Source of the DNA: Parafrankia irregularis | Lineage (GTDB): Bacteria; Actinomycetota; Actinomycetes; Frankiales; Frankiaceae | Length of the DNA stretch: 64,000 nt | Direction: 5' to 3' | Assembly: GCF_001536285.1 (NCBI RefSeq) | Contig: NZ_FAOZ01000007.1 | Coordinates: 13,360-77,359 of the forward strand | Part shown: positions 2 to 47,990 of the stretch, one piece after another | Layout of the letters: every line of letters begins with the position of its first letter | Position numbering within the stretch: position 1 is the stretch's first letter | Translations under genes and position numbers: made by a program | Notes under the pieces: generated by a model | Told to the model about the DNA's origin: nothing | The model's database searches: none | The model's input: the letters and a program-made list of their open reading frames with translations, nothing else

Positions 2-3000
2 GTGGGGGGTGTGGAGGTGGTGCGGGAGTCGGTGGCGTGGCCTGAGGTGGTGGGTCGGGTGCGGCGGGCGGGGGTGTCGTCGTTCGGGATGTCGGGGACG
101 AACGCGCACGTCATCCTCGAAGAGCCCCCGGCGGAAGCGGCGCCCGCGGATTCCGGCTCGGAGCCGAGCGCTGCGGGCACCTCCGGCGGCGACTCGGCGA
201 AAAGCGCCGTCGTGGCCGGTGGCTTCGGGGTCGTGCCCTGGGTTCTGTCGGCGCGGACGGCGACGGCTCTTCGGGCCCAGGCCGAGCGGCTGGCGGCCTG
301 CCTGGCGGGCACCGGCGTCGGTGCGCCACCGCACGGTGACGGTGCTCCGTCCGCGCTGGACGTCGGCTGGTCCCTGGCCCGCGGGCGGGCGGCGCTCGAC
401 CACCGAGCGGTGGTGGTACGGGCTCTCGCGGACGGCGACGAGAACGGGCACTCCGAAGCCCTGCGGATCCTGGCCGCCGGTGACGGCGAGCCGGTGACGA
501 ACCTGGTCCGCGGGGCCGTGCGCGGTGGTGATGACCGGGTGGTGTGGGTGTTTCCGGGGCAGGGGGCGCAGTGGGCGGGGATGGGCGTGGAGCTGCTGGA
601 GTCGTCGGCGGTGTTCGCGCGGCGGGTGGCGGAGTGTGATCAGGCGTTGCGGCCGCTGGTGGGCTGGTCGGTGGTGGATGTGCTGCGGGATGTGGCGGGG
701 GCGCCGTCGCTCGAGCGGGTGGACGTGGTGCAGCCGGTGTCGTGGGCGGTGATGGTGGGTCTGGCGGCGGTGTGGGAGTCGTGGGGGGTACGGCCCGACG
801 TGGTCGTGGGGCATTCACAGGGGGAGATCGCGGCGGCGTGCGTCGCGGGCGTGCTGTCGGTGCAGGACGCGGCGCGGGTGGTGGCGGTCCGGTCGCGGGT
901 GATCGCACGGGTGCTGGCGGGTGCGGGCGGCATGGCGTCGGTGGCACTGCCGGCCGGTGAGGTCGAGGCGCTGCTGGCGGCCCAGGCCGGCGGGCTGGAG
1001 GTCGCGGCGGTGAACGGGCCGTCGGCGACCACGGTGGCCGGGCCGCCGGAGGCGCTGGCGGACCTGCTGGCCCGCTGGGAGCACGAGGGCGTACGGGCCC
1101 GGCGGCTGCCGGTGGACTACGCCTCCCACACCGCCCAGGTGGAGCGGGTCCGCGAGCCGCTCGCCGCGGAGCTCGCGGATCTGGTGCCCGCCGCGGGCAC
1201 GGTGCCGGTGTGGTCGACGGTGACCGGCGGCCCGCTGGACCCGGCCGTGATGGACGGTGACTACTGGTACCGGAACCTGCGGTCGACGGTGCGCTTCGGG
1301 ACCGTCATCGAGGGGCTTGTCGCGGACGGCTGCCGGGTCTTCCTGGAGGTCAGCCCGCATCCGGTGCTCACCGCGGCGGTCGCGGGCACGGCGGAGGCCG
1401 CCGGCGTCCACGACGCGGTCGTCGTCGGGTCGCTGCGGCGTGACGACGGTGGGCCGCGGCGGCTCGCCACCAGCGCGGCGGAACTGTGGGTCCGCGGCGT
1501 GGCGGTGGACTGGGGTCCGCTGGTGGCCGGGGGGCGGCTGGTCGACCTGCCCACCTACCCGTTCGAGCACCGGCGCTACTGGCTTTCGGCCACCGCCCCC
1601 ACCCGGTCCGCCGACCGCGGCGACGGGTCGGAGGCGGCGTTCTGGGACATGGTCGAACAGGCCGACGTCCCCGCGCTCGCCGGTGCCCTCGACCTGGGCC
1701 CCACCGCTTCGCTGCACGACATCCTGCCGGCGCTGTCCGCGTGGCGCCGCGGCCACCGACACCGGGCCGCCCTCGACGACCTGCGCTACCGCGTCGGCTG
1801 GCAGCCGATCAGCCTGCCCACGGGCGGCGAGGCCGCCGGTACCTGGCTGTTGCTCGTTCCGTCGGCGGCGCCCGGCGAGGTCACCGCCGTGTGTGCGGAC
1901 GTGGCACGTGCCCTGGCCGAGGACGGCTCCGACGTGGTGAGCCTGCCGGTCGGCGCCGAGGACGTCTCGCGGGACGCGTTCGCCAGCCGCCTGCGCTCGG
2001 CCGGGGCGGGCCGTGACGGTGCCGTCCGCGGCGTGGTCTCGCTGCTCGCGCTGACGGACGCCGCACATCCCGAGCTGCCCGGCCTGGGAGTCGGGGTGGC
2101 CGCGACGCTGGCGCTCACGCAGGCGATGGGCGACCTGGGGACCGACACGCCGTTGTGGTGCCTCACCCGCGGTGCGGTGTCCACCGGAGCCGCCGATGCC
2201 GATGCCGATGGCCCTGTGGTTGACCCGAGCCAGGCGCAGATCTGGGGCCTGGCCCGGGTGGCGGCGCTGGAGCACCCGGCCAGCTGGGGCGGACTGGTCG
2301 ACCTGCCCGCGTCACTCGACGAAGGCGCACGGGGGCGGCTGAGGGACATCCTGCGAGGAAGCTCCGGCGAGGACCAGCTCGCGATCCGGGCCCAGGCCGT
2401 GTTCGCCCGCAGGCTGTCACGGGCTCCGCTCGGTGCTGTCGCGCCCCGTCGGTGGCGTCCGCGAGGGACGGTCCTGGTCACGAGCGGTGGTGGCCCGCTC
2501 GGCCCGTATCTGGTCAGCTGGCTGTTCGACCACGGCGCCGACAATGTCGTGCTCGTCGGGCCGCACCGGGCCGACGACCCCGACCTCGCCCCGCTGCATG
2601 GGCGGTCCCAGCATCCGCGGCCTGAGCAGCACCCGCGGCAGCTGACACGACTGACCGTCGCCACCTGTGACCCGGCCGATCCCGACGCGCTGGCCGCGGT
2701 CGTCGGCGCGCACGGCACCGCTGACGAGCCGATCCGCGCGGTCGTGCACGCCGCCGCGCTGCTGGGGCTGCGCCCCCTGGACGACGTCACTCCCGGCGAG
2801 CTCGCCGCTGTCCTCGCCACGAAGGCGGGTGCCGCGCAGGTCCTCGACGAGCTGTTCGACACCGACACGCTCGACGCGTTCGTGCTGTTCTCCTCGGTCA
2901 CCGGAGTGTGGGGCAGCGCGGATCACGCGGCCTACGCCGCCGCGAACGCCTACCTGGACGCGCTGGCGCAGCGGCGCCGGGCCCGGGGCCTGCCCGCGAC

Positions 3001-6000
3001 CTCGATCGCCTGGGGCCTGTGGCGACCGCTGCGGGCGGACGGCACCGCGCCCGCCACCGATTCCGTCGGCGTCGCGCCTGGCGGCAGCGACAACGACGGT
3101 TACGGCGACAACGACAGTTACGGCGACAACGACAGTTACGGCGACGGCGACGGCGCCGGCGACGATCCGACGGCACGGCGGCAGCGGGCGCGCGGACTGG
3201 GCTTTCTCGACCCGGACCTGGCGCTGGAAGCCATGGGGCAGGCACTCGACCACGACGAGACCGAGGTGGTGGTCGCCGAGATCGACTGGAGTCGTTTCAT
3301 CCCCGTCTTCACCTCGGCCGGCCCCCGTCCGCTGCTCGACACGCTGCCCGAGGCACGTGAGCTGGCCGATCGTCGCACCGGGGGCGGGACGACGTCAGCG
3401 CAGGAGATGCCGCCGCTGGTCCGCCGGCTCGCCGCCCTGCCCGACGGCGAGCGTGACCGCGCGCTTGTCGACGAGGTCCGGGCCAGGGCCGCGGCCGTGC
3501 TCGGGCACGCCGACGCGGCGACGGTGGGTGCGCAGCGTGCCTTCCGGGACCTCGGCTTCGACTCACTCACCTCCGTCGACCTGCGGAACCGGATCGGCGA
3601 GGTGTTCGGCCTGCGGCTGCCGGCCACGCTGGTGTTCGACTATCCGACCCCGGCCGCGCTCGCGGAGTTCCTCGGCACGGAGCTCGCCGCGAGCCTCGGC
3701 ACGAGCACCGACGCGAACCCGGTCCCCGGCCCTACCGCCGGCGGGGCGGTCGCGGGCCTCGGCGCTCTCTCCGAGGCCGAACCGGTCGCGATCGTCGCCA
3801 TGGCCTGCCGGCTGCCCGGCGGGGTCCGCTCACCCGAGGACCTGTGGCGGCTGGTGGCCGACGGACAGGACGCGATCACCGAGTTCCCGGCCGACCGGGG
3901 CTGGAACCTCGATGACCTCTACGACCCGGACCCCGAGCGCCCCGGCACCTCCTATGTGCGCCACGGCGGCTTCCTCGCCGACGTCGCGGAGTTCGACGCC
4001 GAGTTCTTCGGTATCGGCCCCCGCGAGGCCTTGGCGATGGACCCCCAGCAGCGCCTGCTGCTCGAGGTGTCCTGGGAGGCGCTCGAACGCGCCGGCATCG
4101 ACCCGGCCAGTCTGCACGGAACCTCCGGGGGCGTGTTCGTCGGCACCAACGTCCAGGACTACGGACCGCGGGCGATGGCCGCCGCCGAGCCGATGGAGGG
4201 CTACATCGGCATCGGCAACGCCGCCAGCGTGATGTCCGGCCGCATCTCCTACGCCCTCGGACTGCAGGGGCCGGCCGTCACGGTGGACACCGCCTGTTCG
4301 TCCTCGCTGGTGGCCCTGCACCAGGCGGTCGCGGCACTGCGGCAGGGGGAGTGCTCACTGGCCCTGGCCGGAGCCGCGGTGGTGATGTCCTCGCCGCTGA
4401 TGTACGTCGAGTTCAGCCGGCAGCGCGCGCTGTCGCCGGACGGTCGCTGTCAGGCCTTCGGCGCGGGCGGCAACGGAACGGGGCTGTCCGAGGGCGTCGG
4501 GATCCTGGTCCTGGAACGGCTCGGTGACGCCCGCCGCAACGGTCATCCGGTGCTCGCCCTGGTCGAGGGCAGCGCGGTCAACTCCGACGGCGCGTCGAAC
4601 GGGCTCAGCGCGCCGAACGGCCCGGCGCAGCAACGGGTGATCCGCCAGGCGCTCGCCGCCGCCGGGCTGTCCGCGTCCGACGTCGACGCGGTGGAGGCAC
4701 ACGGAACCGGGACGAAGCTGGGTGATCCCATCGAGGCCCAGGCGCTCATCGCCACCTACGGCCGGGACCGGCCGGCGCGGCAACCGCTGTGGCTGGGATC
4801 GCTGAAGTCCAACATCGGGCACACCCAGGCCGCCGCCGGGGTCGCCGGAGTGATCAAAATGGTCCTGGCGATGCGGCACGGCCAGCTGCCGCGCACACTG
4901 CACGCCACCGAGCCCACCCCGCACGTCGACTGGGACGCGGGCACCGTCCGGCTGCTGACCGAACGGATCCCCTGGCCGGACCGCCCCGCCGGCGCGGACC
5001 CGCGGAACGGGCCCGGCCCGGACGGACCCGACTCGAACGGGCGAGGCCCGCGCCGGGCCGGGGTCTCCGCCTTCGGGATCAGCGGCACCAACGCTCACGT
5101 GATCGTCCGTGAGGCACCCGACGACCCGGTGGAGGGCGACCCCGCGGCAGACGACCCCGCGGCTGGCGGGCCGGACGTCCCGACCGGGGCCGACGGTGGC
5201 CAGGCGCCCCGGGCGGAGCCACTCCCGGTGCCGTTGCTCGTCTCGGCGCGCAGCGAGCGGGCTCTGCGTGCCCAGGCTCGGCGACTGGCCGCCCATCTCG
5301 CCGACCATCCCGACGCGGCCGTGCCGGATGTCGGCCTGGCCACGGTGACCACACGCGGCACGTTCGACCACCGGGCCGTCGTCGTCGGCGCGGACCGCGC
5401 GGGGCTGGGCGCCGGGCTCGCGCGGCTCGCCGCCGAGCCGGGTCCCGCCGACGGGCTCGTCGCCGACCCCGCGATCACCTCCGTCACCTTCACCGACGAC
5501 CCGGCGGGTGCGCTGGTCGCGCGGGGTCTGGCGCGACCTGACCCACGGGTCGCCTTCGTCTTCCCCGGGCAGGGCTCCCAGTGGGCCGGCATGGGCCGGG
5601 AGCTGCTCAGGTCCTGCCCACCGTTCCGCGAGCGGATGACCGCCTGCGCCGAGGCGTTCGCCCCCTACTTCGGCTGGTCCCTGCTGGACGTTGTCAGCGG
5701 TGCCGAGCACGCTCCCGGGCTCGACGACATCGAGGTGATCCAGCCCGCCCTGATGTCGATGATGGTGTCGCTCGCGGCGGCCTGGGAGGCCTACGGAGTG
5801 ACCCCGGCCGCGGTGGTCGGGACCAGCCAGGGCGAGGTCGCCGCCGCGCACGTCGCCGGGATCCTCTCCCTCGCCGACGCCGCCCGGGTCATCGCGCTGC
5901 GCAGCCGGCTGCTGGCCGAGCGCCTGCGCGGCCGCGGAGCGTTGGCCTCCGTCGCACTGCCCGCCGCCGACGTGCGGGCCCGGCTCGCCCGCTTCGGCGG

Positions 6001-9000
6001 CCGGCTCGCCATCGGCGGTGTCAACGGTCCACGCCAGGTCACCGTCGCGGGGGAGACCGCCGCCCTGACGGAGCTGCTCGCCGAACTCACCGACGAGGGC
6101 GTTCGCGCGCGGAGTGTGGCGGCGTCGGTCGCGACGCACTGCGCCCAGGTGGACGGCATCCGTCCCGAGCTGATGGAGATCCTCCGGCCGGTGACGGGCA
6201 GCCGGGCGCGGATCCCGTTCTACTCGACGGTGACCGGCGGGCTGCTGGACGGGACGCCGCCCGGCGCCGAGTACTGGTACTCCAACACCCGCGAACCGGT
6301 GCTGCTCGAAGCGGCCACCACCGCGCTGCTGGCAGCCGGCTTCGACACGTTCGTCGAGGTCAGCCCGCACCCGGTGGTCGGGTTCGCGCTCGCGGAGACG
6401 GTGGAGCAGGCCGGTCGCGACGCCGCCGTCGTCGGCACGCTGCAACGAGGCGGGGGAGGGGCGGACCGCCTGCTCCACGCGCTCGCGCAGCTGCATGTCC
6501 GCGGCGTCGACGTCGACTGGCGGGCGGCGTTCGCCGGCACCCCGGCCCGCCCGGCCGCGCTGCCGACCTACGCCTTCCAACGCCGACGATTCTGGCCACG
6601 GGCCGCCGCGCCGCGCCCCGCGAGCGGCGTGACCGCGGCTGGTGAGGCGCTGGACCATCCGCTGCTCACCGAGGTGGTGCCGCTCGCCGACGGCGGCCAG
6701 CTGTTGACGGGCCGGATCGCCATCGCGACGCAGCCGTGGCTGGTCGGGCGCACCCTCGCCGGGATCCCGGTCGCGCCGGACTCCGTTCTGGTGGAACTGG
6801 CCATCCGCGCCGGTGACGAGGTCGGCGCGACGACGGTGACCGAGCTTGCCGTGACCGAACCGCTGGTTCTGCCCGAATCCGGTGGGCTTCGCATCCAGGC
6901 GCGGATCGGCCCGCCGGACGGTACCGGGCGCCGTCCGCTGACGGTGCACGCCTGCCCGGACGACGCCCCGGCTGACGCGACCTGGACGGCCCACGCGACC
7001 GCGGTGCTGACCGGCACCCCTGCGGTGCTGGCCGACACGGCCGCGCCCACCGTCGACCTGGACGTCTGGCCTCCCGCGGGCGCCTCGCCGCTGGACATCG
7101 ACGTCCTCTACGCGGGCCTTCGCGCCGCGGGCCACGGAGATCCGCAGGAGGGGCCCCGGCTGACCTCCGTCTGGCGGGCACCGACCGGGCTGTTCGCCGA
7201 GATCACCCTCGGATCCGGTGCTCACGGGCCCGGCCATGACCACAGCCTCGACGCTGATCACGACGGTGGCGCCGACACGGACGCCGACACGGACGCCGAC
7301 GACGACGGGAGCCGGTTCGGGCTCCACCCGGCGCTGCTCGCGGCAGCCGGTCAGCTTGCTCTCTGGCACCATCTGGAGGCCGATGGGGCCGGGCAGGCCT
7401 CCCGACCAGGTCGTGGGTCGCCCGTTCCCGGGGCGGGAGGGCTCACCGGCTCGGTCCCGACGGCCGCCGGCGCACCGGTCGTCACCTCCGCCGAATATCA
7501 CGAGGTGTGCCTGCACGCGACCGGGGCGCGGACCCTCCGCGTCCACGCCGTCGGCGCCGGGCCGGACGCGGTCGCCGTGCGGATCGCCGACCATACCGGC
7601 GCGCCGGTGGCGTCGGTCGGCTCGATCGTGTTCCGGGAGGTGGAGCCCACTCGGCTGCGCGCGCGGCCCGGGCAGCTCACGGACGCGATGTTCGCGGTCG
7701 AATGGGTACCGGCGACGGGCCAGGCCCAGCCCGGGTCGGGCCAGGTGGTTCCGGCGCCGGCGGCACGGCGGTGGGCGGTCGTGGGGCCGGATCCGTTCGG
7801 GCTGCGCACCGCGCTCGCGCTGGCCGGCGTGGACATCCACGGCTGCGCCGATCTGGCCGAGGCGGCCGGGGACGGCACGGGGCATCCTGTTCCCGACGTC
7901 CTCCTGGTCACCTGCCCGCCGCGGCCGACGGAGGCCACCGAATCCGGTGGTGACATCGCGCTGGCGGCGCGCGCGGCCCTGCGGCGGATCCTGACACTGG
8001 CGCGGGACTGGCTCGCCGACGAGCGTTTCGCCGCCACCAGGTTCGTCGTCGTCACCAGAGACGCGGTCGCGGACGCGCCCGGCGATGGCGGTGTCGATCT
8101 CGTCACCGCACCGGTCTGGGGGCTCGTCGCCTCCGCCGCGTCCGAGAACCCGGATCGTTTCCTGCTCGTGGATGTCGATGCCGCCCCGGAGTCGTCCCGA
8201 GCTCTGCCGGCCGCGGTCAGCTGCCCGGAGCCCCGGGTCGTGATCCGGGCCGGTGCCGTGTTGGGCCAGCGGCTCGTCCGCGCGTCGACGGCCAGATCGA
8301 CAGCCAGAGCAACCGCCAGGTCGACGGCGACGTCGACGGGTGCCGAGGCGACGACGGAGGCGCCCGCCGGGTGGAGGCGCGACGGGACGACGCTGATCAC
8401 CGGAGGCACCGGAACGCTCGGCGGGCTGGTCGCGCGGCATCTGGTCACCACGCACGGAGTCCGGCACCTGTTGCTGGCCAGCCGCGGCGGCCCGCACGCC
8501 CCCGGCGCCACCGCGCTGGCCGACGAGCTGGCCGCGCTGGGCGCCCGGGTCACGGTGGCGGCCTGCGATGTCGCGGACCGGGCCGCGGTGGCCGACCTGC
8601 TGGCCGCGATCCCCGCCGATCATCCGCTGACCGCGGTCGTCCACACCGCCGGTGTGCTCGACGACGGCGTGCTCGGCTCCCTCACCCCTGACCGCCTGGA
8701 GCGCGTGCTGCGCCCGAAGATGGACGCCGCGCTGCACCTGCACGAGCTGACCCAGGGCCACGACCTGCACGCGTTCGTGATGTTCTCGTCGTCCGCGGCG
8801 ACGTTCGGCAGCCCCGGGCAGGGCAACTACGCCGCCGCCAACACCTTCCTGGAGGCGCTGGCCCGCCACCGCCGCCTCGCCGGGCTGCCCGCGGTCGCCC
8901 TCGGCTGGGGATACTGGGCTCCTCGCAGCGCGATGGCCGGCCATCTCGAGCCAGCCGCACTGGCGCGCCGGATGGCCGCGGGCGGACTGCTCCCGATCTC

Positions 9001-9673
9001 CGCGGCCGATGGGATGGCACTGCTGGACGCCGCGCTCGCCGACGATCGTCCCGTCCTGCTGCCGATGCGGCTGGATCCGCGCTCGCTGCCGGCCGACGCT
9101 GTCACGCCACTGCTGCGCGGCCTCGTCCGCCGTCCGGTCCGGCGGACGGTCGACAGCGCCACCGGGGTCTCGGCCCGCACCCTGACCCAGCGGCTGGCCG
9201 GGCTGAGCGCCACCGAGCGGGACAGGCTCCTGCTGGATGCCGTGTGCGCCACGGCCGCGGCGGCGCTGGGCCACGCGTCCGCCGACGAGGTGGCCCCACA
9301 CCGGCCGTTCAAGGAACTGGGGTTCGACTCACTGGCGTCACTGCAGTTCCGCAACCGACTGGCGGCCGCGACCGGGGTGCGTCTGCGGCCGACGCTCGTC
9401 TTCGACTTTCCGACGCCCGCCGCGATTGCCGGCCACCTGCGGGATCAGCTGCATGCCCCCGATCCAGCCACCGGGAGCGACGACACCTCGCCCCGCACCG
9501 CGCCCAGCTCGGGGCCCGGCTCGGGGCCCGGCTCGGGGCCCGGCGACGTGGCGGCGGGACCGCCGGTGGCCGTGGCCGCTCACGGCGGGGAACCGGACGA
9601 GCACATCGACACCGCGTTCGACGAGATGGATGCCGAGGCCCTGATCCGGCTGGCGCTCGGCGACGACTCCTGA
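2..9673 (+). CDS. Type I modular polyketide synthase, two modules, 5' truncated
   Basis: Left-truncated PKS of 3223 visible residues. Order seen: KS C-terminus (1-42); AT1 with GHSQGE (Ser about 272) and a YASH signature (about 373) typical of methylmalonyl-CoA; KR1 (about 820-1060) with catalytic Ser, Tyr and Asn, a Trp and a His before the Tyr suggesting A2-type stereochemistry, and an altered nucleotide loop (SGGGPLG); ACP1 (GFDSL, Ser about 1188); KS2 (Cys about 1431, HGTGT and NIGH present); AT2 with unusual GTSQGE and VATH in place of YASH/HAFH, so substrate unclear; a DH lacking its catalytic His (Arg 2250) and Asp (Ala 2447); KR2 with TGGTGTLG and LDD, B-type; ACP2 (Ser 3110); acidic C-terminal tail that looks like a docking domain. 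Linkers carry in-frame repeats. The next PKS protein starts 40 bp downstream and begins with a docking helix, so the chain probably passes to it. Confidence 0.95.
3089..3142 (+). repeat. Three 18-bp in-frame tandem repeats in the KR1-ACP1 linker
   Basis: Three near-identical 18-bp units encode [12 protein letters not shown]-type hexapeptides between KR1 and ACP1. The unit length preserves the frame. They make a flexible acidic linker and are probably a replication-slippage product. Confidence 0.8.
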
Positions 9674-9713: not shown

Positions 9714-12116
9714 GTGACCAACACCGCCGACAGACTCGTCGAGGCGCTGCGGGCGACGATGAAGGAGAACGAGCGCCTGCGTCGGCAGCTCGCCGCGACG
9801 ACCGAACCCATCGCCGTGATCGGGATGGCCTGCCGTTTCCCGGGCGGTCTGCGTTCCCCGGACGAGCTGTGGCGGTTCGTCGCCGCCGGCGGCGACGCGA
9901 TCTCCCCGTTCCCGTCGAACCGCGGGTGGGACACGTCCGCCCTGCCGTGCTTCGGTGGCGGGTTCCTGCACGACGCGGCCGACTTCGACCCGGAGTTCTT
10001 CGGCCTTACGGAGAACGAGGCGCTGGCGACCGACCCGCAGCAGCGCCTGCTGCTGGAGACCTCGTGGGAGGCGTTCGAGCACGCGGGCATCGACCCGCTC
10101 ACCGCCCGCGGCAGCAGTACCGGTGTGTTCTTCGGCGTGATCTTTCACGACTATGGTTACCGGTTGCGCCCGCCCCCTCCGGGAATCGACGGCTACACCT
10201 ACTTCGGCAGCGCAGGCAGCATCGCGTCCGGCCGGGTCGCCTACACCCTCGGCCTCGAAGGACCGTGCGTCACCCTGGACGCCGCCTGCGCCTCGTCGCT
10301 CGTCGGCCTGCACCTGGCCAGCCAGGCCCTGCGGCGTGGTGAGTGCTCCCTGGCGCTGGTCGGCGGGGTGTCCGTGCTCGCCACCACCGAGCTGTGGGAG
10401 GAGACCACCAGGACGGGCCAGGGCCTGGCCGCGGACAGCCGCTGCAAGTCGTTCGCCGCCGCCGCCGACGGCACCGGCATCTCCGAAGGCGTCGGCGTCC
10501 TGCTGGTGGAACGCCTCAGCGTCGCCCGGCGCAACGGTCACCCGGTGCTCGCGGTGGTGCGCGGCAGCGCGGTCGACCAGAGCGGTGCCACCAACGGCTT
10601 CACCGCGCCCAGCGCGGCATCCCAGGAACGGCTGATCACCCGCGCGCTCGCGGACGCCCGCCTCGAACCGGGCGACGTCGACGCGGTCGAGGGCCACGGC
10701 ACCGGCACCCCGGTCGGCGACCCGATCGAGCTCGCCGCGCTGCTCGCGACCTACGGCCGTGGCCGGCCCACCGGCCGGCCGCTGTGGCTCGGATCGCTGA
10801 AGTCGAACCTCGGGCACACCCAGGCCGCCGGCGGTGCCGGTGCCGTGATCAAGGCCGTGATGGCGATGCGGCACGGGGTTCTCCCGCGCACCCTGCACGT
10901 GGACGCGCCGACCCCGCACGCCGACTGGGCACACGGCGGTGTGGCGCTGTTGCGGGAATCCGTCCCCTGGCCGGCCACCGAAGGCCGCCCCAGGCGGATC
11001 GGTGTCTCCTCCTTCGGAGCCAACGGCACCCTGGCCCACGCCGTCCTCGAACAGGTTCCGCGGGAGAACGAGGAACCCACGGCCCGCCGCGCGGGCGAAG
11101 GCAGCGACGGGGGCCTTGCCGTCGTGCCCTGGCTGCTCTCGGCGCGATCCGCGGCCGGCCTGCGCGGTCAGGCCGAGCGACTGCTCGCGCACCTGAACGA
11201 AAACCCCGACCTCGCCCCGGCCGATGTCGCGTACACGCTGGCGACCGGCCGCTCCGCCTTCGAGCACCGGGCGGTACTCGTCGCCGCCGACGTCGCCCAG
11301 CTCAGTCGGGGACTCGCCGCCGTCGCCGCGGGAACCCACACAGCCGAGACGGAGGTCGCACCCGCCGACGGTTCGCGCGCCGTCGGTTCGGCGGAGCCGG
11401 TGACCGTGACGCGAGGTGTCGTCAGCGCGGGGCACGCCGACCGGGCCGCTCCGGTCGGCACGACATCCGGCTTCGCGGCTGCCGGCGTTCCGCTCGCCTT
11501 CGTCTTCCCCGACCGGCCCGGCAGGCTTCCGGGCCATGGCAGCGCGCTGGCGGAGCGCTTCGCCGCCTTCGCGGCCGCACTGCGGGCCATCGGCACTGCG
11601 TTCGACGAACCAGGGCTCGAACGCGCGGGCGGGAACACCGCCCCGGAGGCCTGGGCGGGTTTCGCCTCGCAGGTCGCGCTCTGCCGGCTGTTGGAATCCT
11701 GCGGAGTGCGCGCGGACATGGTTCTCGGCGTCGGCACGGGCGAACTGGCCGCCGCATATGTGAACGGCACCCTGACCGCCGACGACGTACGCGCTCTGAT
11801 CGCGACGCATCCGTCGTCGGTCCCGTCGTCCCCTGACGACCGCCGGGTTCCCTCCACCGCCACGGCGGTGGTCATCGGGACGTCCGCGGCGGATGGCGGC
11901 AGGTCGAACGGCGCAGCCGACCTGGTGTTGCTACCCGCTGGCCGCACAGCGGTCCGGGGCGTCACGGATCTGCTGGCCGCGCTGCACATCCGCGGCGTCG
12001 TGGTGAACTGGCAGGCATTCCTCACCGGAACCGGCGCCCGCAGGGTGGACCTGCCCACCTACGCCTTCCAGCGCAGACGTTTCTGGCTGGAGGCCGGTGC
12101 GGCGCGGAAGACCTGA
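9714..12116 (+). CDS. PKS protein with docking helix, KS and inactive AT; no ACP
   Basis: 800 aa. GTG start chosen because GGAGG lies 5 bp upstream and the protein then begins with the usual class-1 docking helix ([19 protein letters not shown]). KS follows with active-site Cys about 192 (DAACASS), HGTGT and NLGH, so it should condense. The AT-like region is degenerate: the usual FPGQG is FPDRPG, and GHSxGE is GVGTGE, with Gly 674 where the nucleophile Ser belongs. It keeps the post-[12 protein letters not shown] motif and then stops. No ACP, KR or thioesterase follows and no further PKS gene lies to the right. It is either a decayed last module or a KS-only condensing or transfer protein served by an ACP in trans. 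KS-AT identification is secure; the role is open. Confidence 0.92.
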
Positions 12117-14776: not shown

Positions 14777-15619
14777 ATGTCCTCCGTCACTGACAGCCGA
14801 CAGACCCCGGCGCGCTCCAACCGCCATCTTCGCGGCTATCTCGGTCGCGCCGCTACCCGCTTCTGGCCCGCGATGGACGGGAACAGCCCGCCCCGCGCGT
14901 CGATCGTGCTCATGCCCGGCCGCGGCGAGGACGTCACCCACTTCGAACGGGTCGCGCTGCGGCTGGCTGTCGACGGCTACGACGTGACGTTCCTTGGGTC
15001 GGCCGAACATGCCGACGTCGCGCTTGCCGAAGCCCGGCGGCCCGGGGCCCCGTTCGTCCTGTTCGGTTCCGACACCGGGGCGTTGCGCGCGCTGGAGCTG
15101 GCTGGTTCACCGGCGCTGCGGCCGGACGCGCTCGTCCTGCTCGGCCTGCCGCTGCTGCACCGGGCGTTCGCGGGCGAGATGCCCGAGGGCCTGCCGCCGC
15201 GGGCGCTTCCCGATCTTCCCGCTCTGCTCATCCACGGCCGTCACGACGAGGTCAGCCCGCACCACCTCGCGCGGATCATCACCCGGACGGTGCGGACCGC
15301 CCGGCTGGAGTCGGTACCGGGTGGCCACCGGGTCCTGTCCGGGCCTGGTGCGCGGCTGGCCGCGGCGCTCACCGTGCTGTTCGTCGAGTCGCTGCTACAG
15401 GGCAATCATCCGGGGTCTCGGGGCGGCCTTCCGGCGGATCGCCTCGGTGCTGGTGATGGTGCTGGCGCCAGGGCTGGTGCCGGCGCGGGTTCGCGTGTCG
15501 GCGCCGGTGCCGCGGCCCGCTCCGACGCCGGTGTCGCGGGGATCGCCGGTACGGTGACGTGGGCCCCCGGCGTCCCACGGCAGATCAGCGGCACGATGCG
15601 GCGAGTGGGCGGTTCCTGA
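14777..15619 (+). CDS. Alpha/beta hydrolase-fold protein
   Basis: 280 aa, ATG with AGGAG 7 bp upstream. It shows the order of a small serine hydrolase: strand ASIVLMPGRGED, nucleophile elbow FGSDTGA (Ser about 97), acid HGRHDEVSP, and His in VPGGHRV. The elbow is GSDTG rather than GxSxG. The last about 70 residues are a Gly/Ala-rich low-complexity tail (repeated GAGAR-type units) not expected of the fold and probably a repeat expansion. No signal peptide. Substrate cannot be inferred. Confidence 0.7.
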   Translation: MSSVTDSRQTPARSNRHLRGYLGRAATRFWPAMDGNSPPRASIVLMPGRGEDVTHFERVALRLAVDGYDVTFLGSAEHADVALAEARRPGAPFVLFGSDTGALRALELAGSPALRPDALVLLGLPLLHRAFAGEMPEGLPPRALPDLPALLIHGRHDEVSPHHLARIITRTVRTARLESVPGGHRVLSGPGARLAAALTVLFVESLLQGNHPGSRGGLPADRLGAGDGAGARAGAGAGSRVGAGAAARSDAGVAGIAGTVTWAPGVPRQISGTMRRVGGS

Positions 15620-20534: not shown

Positions 20535-21561
20535 GCGATGCCTTCCTCGTTGAGGGGCTGACGGCGTGTCAGCCTCTCAACGAGAGGTGGCCGCCTGGGA
20601 AACGCGGAACGTCCGACTGGAACCGATTTGTCAAAGCGAAAAATCGGGTGATCACGCTTCGCCGCGGGCATCCGGTGTGAAACTGCCTCGCCGAACAGAT
20701 GAAACTGCTGGTCAGTGGTCGTATTCGGTGCCGGGGTGATCCTGTCGTGCGTGCCCGCGAGAGGTCTCGGGCCCTCACTGCGCGTGCTGTGAGGAGCGAT
20801 CTGTGCCGGCCTGGAGGCAGGGTCGATCCCGCATCCTGACGTGCTGTCGAGGGACAACGTCCCGACGGTGCCGGGGCGTCCGGCCCGCCTATGGTGGGCA
20901 CAAAGAGTCATTATTTTCTCGACGGATCGTCATTACGTACTAGTGTCCAGTCTGGCTCCGCTACTGACGGTGCGATGGTGTAGCGGAACTCGCGGTGGGA
21001 CGCCGGATGGGATGGCGATGTCGGAGGCCGCGCCGGGGCGACGTCGAACCGTCCGCCGCGCCGGGTCGGCGATGTGGTGACGGACGCTGCTAGCAGGGCG
21101 GCCCGGTCGACGAGAGGAAGGAAGTCGGCGGAAGCCACCGTGAGACCACGGAAAAATTAATCAGACCAATGCTGGGTCGCCAGCTGGATCACTGTGGTCT
21201 CCGGTTTGGTTGGGCGGTGGAGAATCCTCACGGTCTGTGTTCGTAACAGGAAAAGGACAGGGCTAGGGGGGACCACGGTGGCGGGCCACTTCTGACTAAT
21301 TGTGCGAGCTTCCCGTATCCCGGATCGCCGGGATACGGGAAGCTCGCACTGCGCCCGACGGCGCGCCTTGAACTCGACCGGTGGTTTCCGCCGTCGAGCT
21401 GTACGACGGGGGAGTATCTGCGGTGATCCGCAGAAAAAATGCAGGGAATATTGCGCCGCTGGTACCCGTCTGTCCGGCTTGCGGTCCTCTGGTCGCCTGT
21501 TCGCCGATCCACCGCCCGTCCAGGGTGATCTTCCGCAGTCCACAGAGGGGTGATGCACGCC
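20535..21561. other. Divergent regulatory region between phoD and the encapsulin gene
   Basis: About 1 kb without a convincing gene and with AT-richer patches than the flanks. On the phoD side there is an imperfect inverted repeat (gagg-ctgac/gtcagcctc, about 20550-20577) and GTGAAAC/ATGAAAC direct repeats at 20677-20683 and 20699-20705. On the encapsulin side there is the perfect 22-bp hairpin at 21302-21349. Short open frames here show no recognisable sequence. Confidence 0.55.
21302..21349. promoter_or_regulatory. Perfect 22-bp inverted repeat with 4-nt loop upstream of the encapsulin gene
   Basis: Arms 21302-21323 and 21328-21349 are exact reverse complements; the loop is atcg. It lies about 210 bp before the encapsulin start. 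No U-tract is present, so it may be a leader-RNA hairpin, a read-through barrier for the upstream region, or a large operator. Confidence 0.75.
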
Positions 21562-22968
21562 ATGACCGAGCCGGTCAGCGTATCCGCTGATGTCGACCTT
21601 TCCGCGCAGCCGTTGAGTCTTGGCTCCGCCGCGGCGCGAAATCTCGCGACCACGACCAAGTCCGTCCCGCAGATGCAGGAGATCTCCTCCCGCTGGCTGC
21701 TGCGGATCCTGCCCTGGGTGCACACGGCCGGTGGCGTGTACCGGGTGAACCGGCGCCTCACGTACATCGCCGGCGACGGCCTGCTCACCTTCACCAGCAC
21801 CGGCTCGCAGATCCAGGTCGTCCCCGCGGAGCTCACCGAGCTCCCCCCGCTGCGGGGTTTCGAGGGTGACGAGCTCGCCGCGCTCGCCGACGGCTTCGTC
21901 CAGCGGGAGTACTCCGCGGGCGACGTCCTCGTCACCAGTGGAGACGCCGCGGACGCCGTCTTCCTCATCGCGCACGGCAAGGTCGGCAGGTTCGGGCCCG
22001 GAGCCTACGACGACGAGCGGTCGCTGGGAATCCTCAGCAGCGGCGAGTACTTCGGTGACGAGGTCCTGATCGAGGCGGACGCGACCTGGGGTTACACGGC
22101 CCGTGCCCTCACCGGCACGACGGTGCTCGTCCTGCCCCGCCAGCGGTACCAGCAGCTTCTGGACGCCTCCGACACGCTGCGGGCCTGGGTGGAGGACTAC
22201 CGCGCCCGTGTCGTGCCCGTGCAGAACCGGTACGGCGAGGCCGAGATCGCGATCTCGGCCGGCCACGTCGGCGAGCCGGTGCTGCCCGGCACGTTCGTCG
22301 ACTACGAGCTGGCGCCCCGCGAGTACGAGCTGAGCGTCGCCCAGACCGTGCTGCGGGTGCACAGCCGGGTCGTCGACCTCTACAACGAGCCGATGAACCA
22401 GCTCGAGCAGCAGCTGCGGCTGACCGTCGAGGCGTTGCGTGAGCGCCAGGAGCAGGAGCTGGTGAACAACGCCGACTTCGGCCTGCTGCACAACGCGGAC
22501 CTGCGCCAGCGCATTCACACCCGGACGGGGCCACCGACCCCGGACGACCTCGACGAACTGCTGAGCCGCCGGCGGAGCACGCATGTTCTGCTCGCCCATC
22601 CGCGCGCCATCGCGGCGTTCGGCCGGGAGTGCACGGCGCGCGGCATCTACCCGGCGACGGTGCTGTTCCATGACCAGCATGTGCCGGCCTGGCGTGGTGT
22701 TCCCCTGCTGCCGGTGAACAAGATCCCGGTCAGCGTGGCCGGGAAGACGTCGATCCTCGCGCTGCGCACCGGTGAGGAGAGCCAGGGCGTCATCGGGCTG
22801 CACCACGTCGGTCTTCCCGACGAGCTGGAGCCGGGGCTTTCCGTCCGGTTCATGGGGATCAGCGAGAAAGCAATCATCTCCTATCTGGTGACGACCTACT
22901 ACTCCGCCGCCGTTCTGGTGCCCGACGCCCTCGGGATCCTGGAGAACGTGGAGATCGGGCGGCACTAG
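21562..22968 (+). CDS. eshA: Family 2B encapsulin shell protein with cyclic-nucleotide-binding-like insertion (EshA-like)
   Basis: 468 aa from ATG 21562; ATG 21553 and GTG 21550 are alternatives (AGAGGGG at 21544). The HK97-fold encapsulin parts flank a CNB-like insertion (about residues 95-225, with [20 protein letters not shown] and [18 protein letters not shown]). The Arg that normally binds the cyclic-nucleotide phosphate is not at its usual place, so ligand binding is uncertain. C-terminal shell motifs include [19 protein letters not shown] and [20 protein letters not shown]. EshA-type proteins assemble nanocompartments that load a neighbouring enzyme, often a terpene cyclase. The adjacent gene 111 bp downstream is a terpene cyclase of the geosmin synthase type, making it the likely cargo. 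The assignment is from remembered EshA features, not a search. Confidence 0.87.
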
Positions 22969-25461
<2,493 letters not shown>

Positions 25462-47041: not shown

Positions 47042-47219
47042 CAAGCTCGTGACCGGCGAACTGCGGTGTGTGCATACCGGCCCCGTCGCACCCGCGCCGC
47101 GGCGGCAACGTGAGGTAACCGGCACTCGCGGCGGGATGACTGGTCGAAGGTGCCTGGTGAGTGGTCTGATGACGAAGGCGCCAGGCTGACCCGCCTTGTC
47201 GCTGTTTGTCTCCGTCCAG

Positions 47220-47990
47220 ATGGTGGTGACCTTGACCGGCGACGTGGATCGGTGGATCCGGCGGTTCAACCGAGGTAACGAGTCCGGCCCACGGCTGGTC
47301 TGCTTCCCCCACGCGGGCGGCGCCTCGACCTACTTCCATCCGCTGTCGGTGGCCCTCGCCGACGTCGCCCAGGTCGTCGCCGTGCAGTACCCGGGCCGGC
47401 AGGACCGGCTCGGTGAGCCGCCGCTGACGAGCATCGCCGCGCTCGCGGACGAGGTCGTCGCCAGGGTGGCGCAGCTCGACGACCGTCCGACAGCCTTCCT
47501 CGGGCACAGCATGGGATCCATCGTGGCGTTCGAGGTGACCCGGCGGCTGGAGGCCGACCCCGCGGCGCCGAAGCCGCTGATCCTGTTCCCCTCCGCGCGG
47601 CCGGCGCCGTCCAGGGGGCGTCCTGGCAGCGTCCACCTCGGCGGCGACGAGGCCGTCATCGGCTCGATCGCGGCGCTGGGGGGCACCGACCCCCGTCTGC
47701 TGGGCGATCCGGAGCTCCTCGCGCTCATCCTGCCGGCGACCCGTGCGGACTACCGGGCCATCGAGACCTACCACCCCGAACCGGGCGCGACGGTCAGCGT
47801 GCCGATGTGGGTGACGATCGGCGCCAGCGATCCGGCGGTGACCGAGGACGAGGCGCTGGCCTGGCGGGAGCACACCACCGGCGACTTCGACCTGCTCGTT
47901 CTCCCGGGTGGGCACTTCTACCTCACCGAGCAGATCGAGGTCGTCGCCGATCGGATCCGCACGGGACTGCTCGGCGTCACCGCATCCTGA
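47220..47990 (+). CDS. Type II thioesterase (RifR/RedJ-like)
   Basis: 256 aa from ATG 47220; GTG 47226 and TTG 47196 are other in-frame starts. Family motifs: DRWIRRFNRG, RLVCFPHAGGASTYFHPL, VQYPGRQDRL, FLGHSMGSIVAFE (nucleophile Ser), ASDPAVTEDEA (acid region) and VLPGGHFYLTEQIE (His). These editing enzymes remove wrong or stalled acyl groups from PKS/NRPS carrier proteins. It lies 35 kb from the PKS here, so it may serve that cluster or another. Divergent from the HEAT-MerR operon, with the MerR operator between. Confidence 0.9.
   Translation: MVVTLTGDVDRWIRRFNRGNESGPRLVCFPHAGGASTYFHPLSVALADVAQVVAVQYPGRQDRLGEPPLTSIAALADEVVARVAQLDDRPTAFLGHSMGSIVAFEVTRRLEADPAAPKPLILFPSARPAPSRGRPGSVHLGGDEAVIGSIAALGGTDPRLLGDPELLALILPATRADYRAIETYHPEPGATVSVPMWVTIGASDPAVTEDEALAWREHTTGDFDLLVLPGGHFYLTEQIEVVADRIRTGLLGVTAS

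Follow-up and report, generated by a model that had tools for sequence, protein, structure and literature searches.

How does a modular polyketide synthase (PKS) set its chain free when its last protein consists of a ketosynthase (KS) and the remnant of an acyltransferase (AT)? The question is raised by gene D, which lies within a 64,000-nucleotide stretch of Parafrankia irregularis DNA (the window), corresponding to bases 13360-77359 of contig C7 in a 9.5-Mb draft genome. On the + strand, the gene starts with the GTG at 9714, preceded by GGAGG, and stops with the TGA at 12114-12116; residue numbers of its protein are counted from this GTG. A Pfam search of the protein returned a docking domain (2e-7), two KS domains (5e-77 and 4.6e-40), the KS-AT linker and an Acyl_transf_1 match of only 43 residues, under the Pfam cut-off, while no ACP and no thioesterase domain was found. 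The protein stops seven residues past the post-AT motif. An earlier note on this DNA had described a terminal protein of KS and dead AT whose translation ends right after that motif, and its coordinates, strand and frame hold, as does the absence of both domains in the Pfam search. An AlphaFold2 model based on 40 aligned sequences (mean pLDDT 81.8) keeps the KS-AT fold, and replaces a model from four sequences that was set aside (pLDDT 34.6). In a PDB search with this model, the Lsd14 and DEBS didomains scored best, with CalA3 of the calcimycin PKS in ninth place (TM 0.80). The closest named record to the protein is from Parafrankia sp. EUN1f (94% over the protein).

Table 1. Features of gene D and its PKS partners (window positions unless a locus is named)
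Feature	Position	Strand	Remarks
Gene C: (KS5)-AT-KR-ACP-KS6-AT-DH-KR-ACP6	2..9673	+	5' part across N gap, left of window
ACP6, presumed chain donor to KS7	9245..9439	+	
Gene C C-terminal docking tail	9611..9670	+	[A]FDEMDA[ED][AT]L[IV]RLALG, 5/5 orthologues
Gene D: docking helix - KS7 - linker - AT*	9714..12116	+	terminal PKS protein, 800 aa
Docking helix, gene D N-terminus	9723..9800	+	PF08990, 2e-7
KS7 domain	9804..11054	+	PF00109/PF02801
Cys192 active-site codon	10287..10289	+	neighbours T190A, S193A
Codon 290	10581..10583	+	Ser vs gate-loop-2 Asp of other KSs (FabF Asp265)
Catalytic His328 codon	10695..10697	+	HGTGT
Catalytic His368 codon	10815..10817	+	
Gate loop 1	11022..11033	+	N437-G-T-L440 vs S-G-T-N of other KSs (FabF Asn404 = L440)
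AT* remnant	11481..12047	+	about a third shorter than an AT; omega 0.33-0.81
Gly674 codon	11733..11735	+	replaces AT nucleophile Ser
Post-AT motif (15 residues)	12048..12092	+	last conserved segment of gene D
Gene A ACP* start	L010:5400-5726	-	on C38

Searches of 146 relatives and 393 genomes of the class, two overlapping sets, yielded gene D matches of at least 76% identity only in G000-G004 and G012, the next-best matches in one of these searches reaching at most 63%. In all five Parafrankia genomes, gene D closes the same four-gene PKS and its protein ends at the same motif; G012, from another genus of the same family, has the KS and the first part of the AT before the contig end cuts the protein. 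An assembly artefact or 3' truncation was ruled out, since five assemblies share the end motif. Nor was there any sign of the simple truncation among homologues that the earlier note had named as the outcome that would count against it, the end being common to five species, and purifying selection on the KS (KS7) also speaks against it. Among 160 + strand KS matches in 78 loci, excluding those cut by a locus end, which could not be judged, six had fewer than 1000 aa left before the stop. Three of these are gene D proteins, L105 ends in an ACP, L054 looks frame-broken and L074 is a KS-AT*-SnoaL protein of Streptomyces coffeae. A 979-aa KS-AT frame in G112 was dropped as a comparator because its AT motif and gate are intact and its tail looks frame-shifted.

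When the domains were mapped in the five genomes, one PKS layout emerged: ACP*-[KS-AT-KR-ACP]-[KS-AT-DH-ACP] in gene A, two KS-AT-KR-ACP modules in gene B, [KS-AT-KR-ACP]-[KS-AT-DH-KR-ACP] in gene C and KS-AT* in gene D. The assemblies of G002 and G003 contain an unbroken gene A and those of G003 and G004 an unbroken gene B, whereas none has gene C whole; for G001, only fragments of genes A and C could be mapped. The window's genome has gene A split across contigs C38 and C7, a broken KS4 frame near C7:9070 and ten N inside KS5. From the AT motifs, modules 1 and 4 would use malonyl and modules 2, 3 and 5 methylmalonyl units, module 6 being atypical. The AT of module 6 (window 3701-9673) reads GTSQG for GHSQG and VATH for YASH in the five species, and no HxxxG motif was found in the DH of this module in the window's genome, G003 and G004. 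Module 2 (L009:9-3218 and orthologues) has a DH without a KR in the four genomes that cover it (the window's, G002, G003 and G004). The N-terminal ACP-like domain of gene A (ACP*) carries Gly where the phosphopantetheine Ser is expected, in all five species (LGLGGG[SN]), as judged by ungapped alignment to other ACPs; the PKS therefore has dead domains at both ends.

The docking helix of gene D (DRL[VL]EALRA[TA]MKENERLR) is kept in all five Parafrankia orthologues, and the pair that it forms with the gene C tail is conserved and differs in sequence from the A-to-B and B-to-C docking pairs. These sequences support the earlier suggestion that gene D presumably still docks to the preceding module.

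In the AT* domain, the motif reads GVGTG where an AT has GHSxG, with Ser674 changed to Gly, confirming that the nucleophile is lost. The span from the end of the KS-AT linker to YAFQ is 258 aa, and 210-267 aa in the four other complete orthologues, compared with 371-420 aa for ordinary ATs (17 spans, one stretch of DNA being represented by two of them). Gene D has neither the working AT nor the ACP of an ordinary extension module, and AT* and the linker may serve only as a scaffold or lid. Nei-Gojobori estimates of omega over all ten species pairs were 0.127-0.182 for the docking helix and KS7, compared with 0.059-0.164 for KS6, and 0.332-0.807 for AT*, compared with 0.167-0.315 for AT6; ACP* gave 0.210-0.462. 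Constraint on KS7 is thus close to that on a condensing KS, while AT* is loosely held. That AT* evolves faster than AT6 and varies in length between lineages would suit a functionless, decaying remnant of a lost module; such an origin for the whole of gene D is extremely improbable given a KS7 omega near that of KS6, the end shared by five species and the preserved docking pair. In a tree of 155 KSs, built by a quick method, the six KS7s form a single clade (support 100, stem 0.47) placed among ordinary extension KSs.

The catalytic residues of KS7, C192, H328, K363 and H368, are all retained, as the earlier note had read them. Beyond what it had recorded, the gate residues and the residues around the active Cys are replaced. 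In elongating KSs, Asp265 and Asn404 (FabF numbering) hold two gate loops together (PMC7138838). Motif comparison suggests that Ser290 and Leu440 are their counterparts in KS7. Both members of the Asp-Asn pair are lost in all six KS7s, where position 290 is S, S, S, S, G or T and position 440 is L or I. The pair is present in 147 of 149 other aligned KSs, a sample that is neither random, its members being from Parafrankia or fetched by likeness to gene D, nor independent, some being neighbours in one PKS and at least one KS being present twice. The two exceptions are the frame-broken KS4, with a gap at the second gate position, and the S. coffeae terminal module, with Asn and Lys at the gate positions. 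A pattern scan over all loci found Asp and Asn in 171 of 179 distinct KS segments; the remaining eight comprise L074 and seven segments of KS7, among which one gene is counted twice. Sites 190, 193, 242, 373, 437 and 440 are altered in all five aligned KS7s and unaltered in 93-99% of up to 149 other KSs, and the KS7 of G012 has the changes at 193, 242, 373 and 437 in common with the others, T190 being kept.

The absence of the elongating-KS Asp and Asn sets KS7 apart from an ordinary extension module, and, lacking both an ACP and a functional AT and having an altered gate, KS7 cannot extend a chain in cis. Loss of the gate could also hinder loading, because the FabF D265A/N substitutions lowered crosslinking with long acyl-ACP in the experiments described in the same source (PMC7138838). 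Two other KSs in the sample are partly similar. The S. coffeae protein (L074:9765-12545) resembles gene D in its ACP-less end, in the Ser to Gly change of its AT (GHGLG) and in the loss of both gate residues, but it carries a SnoaL-like domain at its C-terminus, continues upstream into fused sequence and has a KS that falls outside the KS7 clade; no relatives of it stood out among the 393 class genomes. The single KSQ loading KS (L095) has A190 and A193 in common with KS7, which differs in keeping Cys192 (no Gln), in its docking helix and in its position after gene C.

The closest worked case is CalA3, an ACP-less protein whose KS amidates the chain with 3-hydroxyanthranilate or hydrolyses it, and whose AT has the same Ser to Gly change, as reported in PMC10006239. 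CalA3 (PDB 7wvz, 8i4y) and gene D are alike in sequence and fold: both are terminal PKS proteins without an ACP or a terminal thioesterase, with an N-terminal docking domain and an intact Cys-His-His-Lys set in the KS. The two differ in extent, CalA3 being KS-AT-DH-KR (1719 aa in 8i4y_A) and gene D KS-AT* alone. The inactive DH-KR of CalA3 pack on its KS-AT, and the KS-AT fragment could not be purified, according to the same source (PMC10006239); gene D ends after AT* and has no such packing. They also differ at the gate. CalA3 has changed SSFG to TCLT and kept GTN, whereas KS7 has kept SSFG, changed GTN to GTL and also changed the loop-2 Asp and T190/S193. The gate of CalA3, C436-L437-T438-L439, is described as positioning the aromatic amine, and KS7 has SSFGA there. 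A shared C-L-T-L gate was accordingly rejected, CalA3 reading RRAGLTCLTLSGTN and KS7 differing from it. Because the gate change of CalA3 is its own, gene D works like CalA3 at most. Gene D is, unlike CalA3, without a conserved acceptor-supply gene.

Flanking DNA was compared over about 33 kb downstream of gene D in the window and 11, 4, 19 and 10 kb in G001-G004, and over 25, 20, 16.5, 4 and 5.5 kb upstream of gene A in the five genomes. In these flanks, no ACP, thioesterase or hydrolase gene is common to the lineages, no ACP or thioesterase gene adjoins gene D in any of the five and none of the conserved neighbours of the PKS is an acceptor-supply gene. An ACP or thioesterase gene to the left of the window, acting in trans, had been considered in the earlier note; the PKS continues leftwards and neither gene was found there. 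A weak alpha/beta-hydrolase match (window 14777-15619) lies beside gene D only in the window's genome and G001. The only families common to lineages are a PF04672 methyltransferase and a presumably LOG-like gene, which lies about 14 kb upstream in the window's genome and 1 kb upstream in G002. The methyltransferase was rejected as a shared release gene: the neighbour in G003 and G004 is a different paralogue (59%), better copies lying elsewhere, and the closest relatives of the window's gene, in G002 and G005, are on contigs not seen with the PKS.

The make-up of gene D is that of NanA11 of nanchangmycin (a KS and an AT-like CR domain), a likeness that favours release of the KSX/KS-CR type, in which KS7 would hand the chain to a discrete carrier protein and thence to a thioesterase, as MonKSX does to MonACPX with MonCII in monensin. 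In these systems, as in gene D, a KS step follows the last module of a PKS without a terminal thioesterase, MonKSX being described as a transferase to a discrete ACP (PMC3943991). By that description, the monensin cluster encodes both the discrete ACP and a dedicated thioesterase, whereas neither was found for gene D: none of the genome's 56 PP-binding matches lies in C7:25.5-77 kb, the two on C38 belong to gene A and the flanks hold no conserved gene for an ACP partner. We therefore regard a route through a discrete ACP as unlikely.

A type II thioesterase is encoded 35 kb to the right of gene D (window 47196-47990; PF00975, 1.5e-51), with relatives at 52-98% in all six other genomes searched. 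It, or a housekeeping hydrolase, might release the chain in trans while gene D only caps or gates the line. Because the thioesterase is found on other contigs in G001-G004, and also in G005, which is without gene D, its distribution suits a genus-wide editing enzyme; purifying selection on the KS would not be needed for a mere cap, and CalG, the type II thioesterase of calcimycin, was found not to be the releaser (PMC10006239). Release in trans is, in our estimation, quite improbable.

The chain might instead be attacked on KS7 by its own hydroxyl or carbon, leaving as a lactone or pyrone. KRs in five of the six modules would make hydroxyls available, and TAS1 is cited as a case of cyclising release catalysed by a KS (PMC10006239). 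As presented there, however, CalA3 takes an external amine or water, and we consider intramolecular release rather unlikely.

Considering that the chain-lengthening parts are lost while the KS is under strong selection, gene D most likely cuts the finished chain loose. We favour, with some reserve, the reading that it is a dedicated chain-release module, transferring the chain from ACP6 to water or a small nucleophile. Judging from the docking sequences and the intact Cys-His-His-Lys set, the chain on ACP6 would pass through the private docking pair to Cys192 of KS7. A small nucleophile (water, amine or alcohol) would then enter KS7 and free the chain as an acid, amide or ester, with His328 and His368 acting, by analogy with CalA3, as base and helpers. 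How KS7 came to this role can be proposed only tentatively: independently of CalA3, breaking of the Asp-Asn link between the gate loops may have opened the acyl-Cys to a small nucleophile.

The earlier note had considered KS transfer to a non-ACP acceptor to be new chemistry. The acceptor part stands, in that KS7, as far as its sequence can tell, probably acts on a non-ACP acceptor; the claim of novelty fails because release by an ACP-less KS is already known from CalA3, by amidation or hydrolysis (PMC10006239). The same source names NonJ/NonK, CerJ and BomK as further KSs whose products are C-O or C-N bonds. What is new here is the KS7 family and its route of reprogramming by gate change, the chemistry being of a known kind; no description of the family, the gate change or so small a release module was found in searches of open-access literature.

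Few KSs are known to form bonds other than C-C. If the proposal is true, joint loss of Asp and Asn, a dead AT and no ACP would form a signature of cryptic chain-releasing KSs, leading also to their acceptors across actinobacterial PKSs. With the gate signature, other release KSs could be recognised by a simple check of their sequence, and the engineering of chain release would gain a handle. Since gene D is small (a KS and an AT remnant), conserved genus-wide and part of a PKS without a conserved release partner, a single expression experiment would suffice to tell whether the KS frees the chain by itself, and which acceptor it uses.

Two further genes of the window lie to the right of the PKS. 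An SrpI-like encapsulin with a cyclic-nucleotide-binding domain (PF19307, PF00027; window 21553-22965) directly precedes a terpene synthase reading frame (window 23032-25461). The latter is split by an in-frame TAA at 23752-23754, a place at which the frame is open in the EUN1f-like genome G001.
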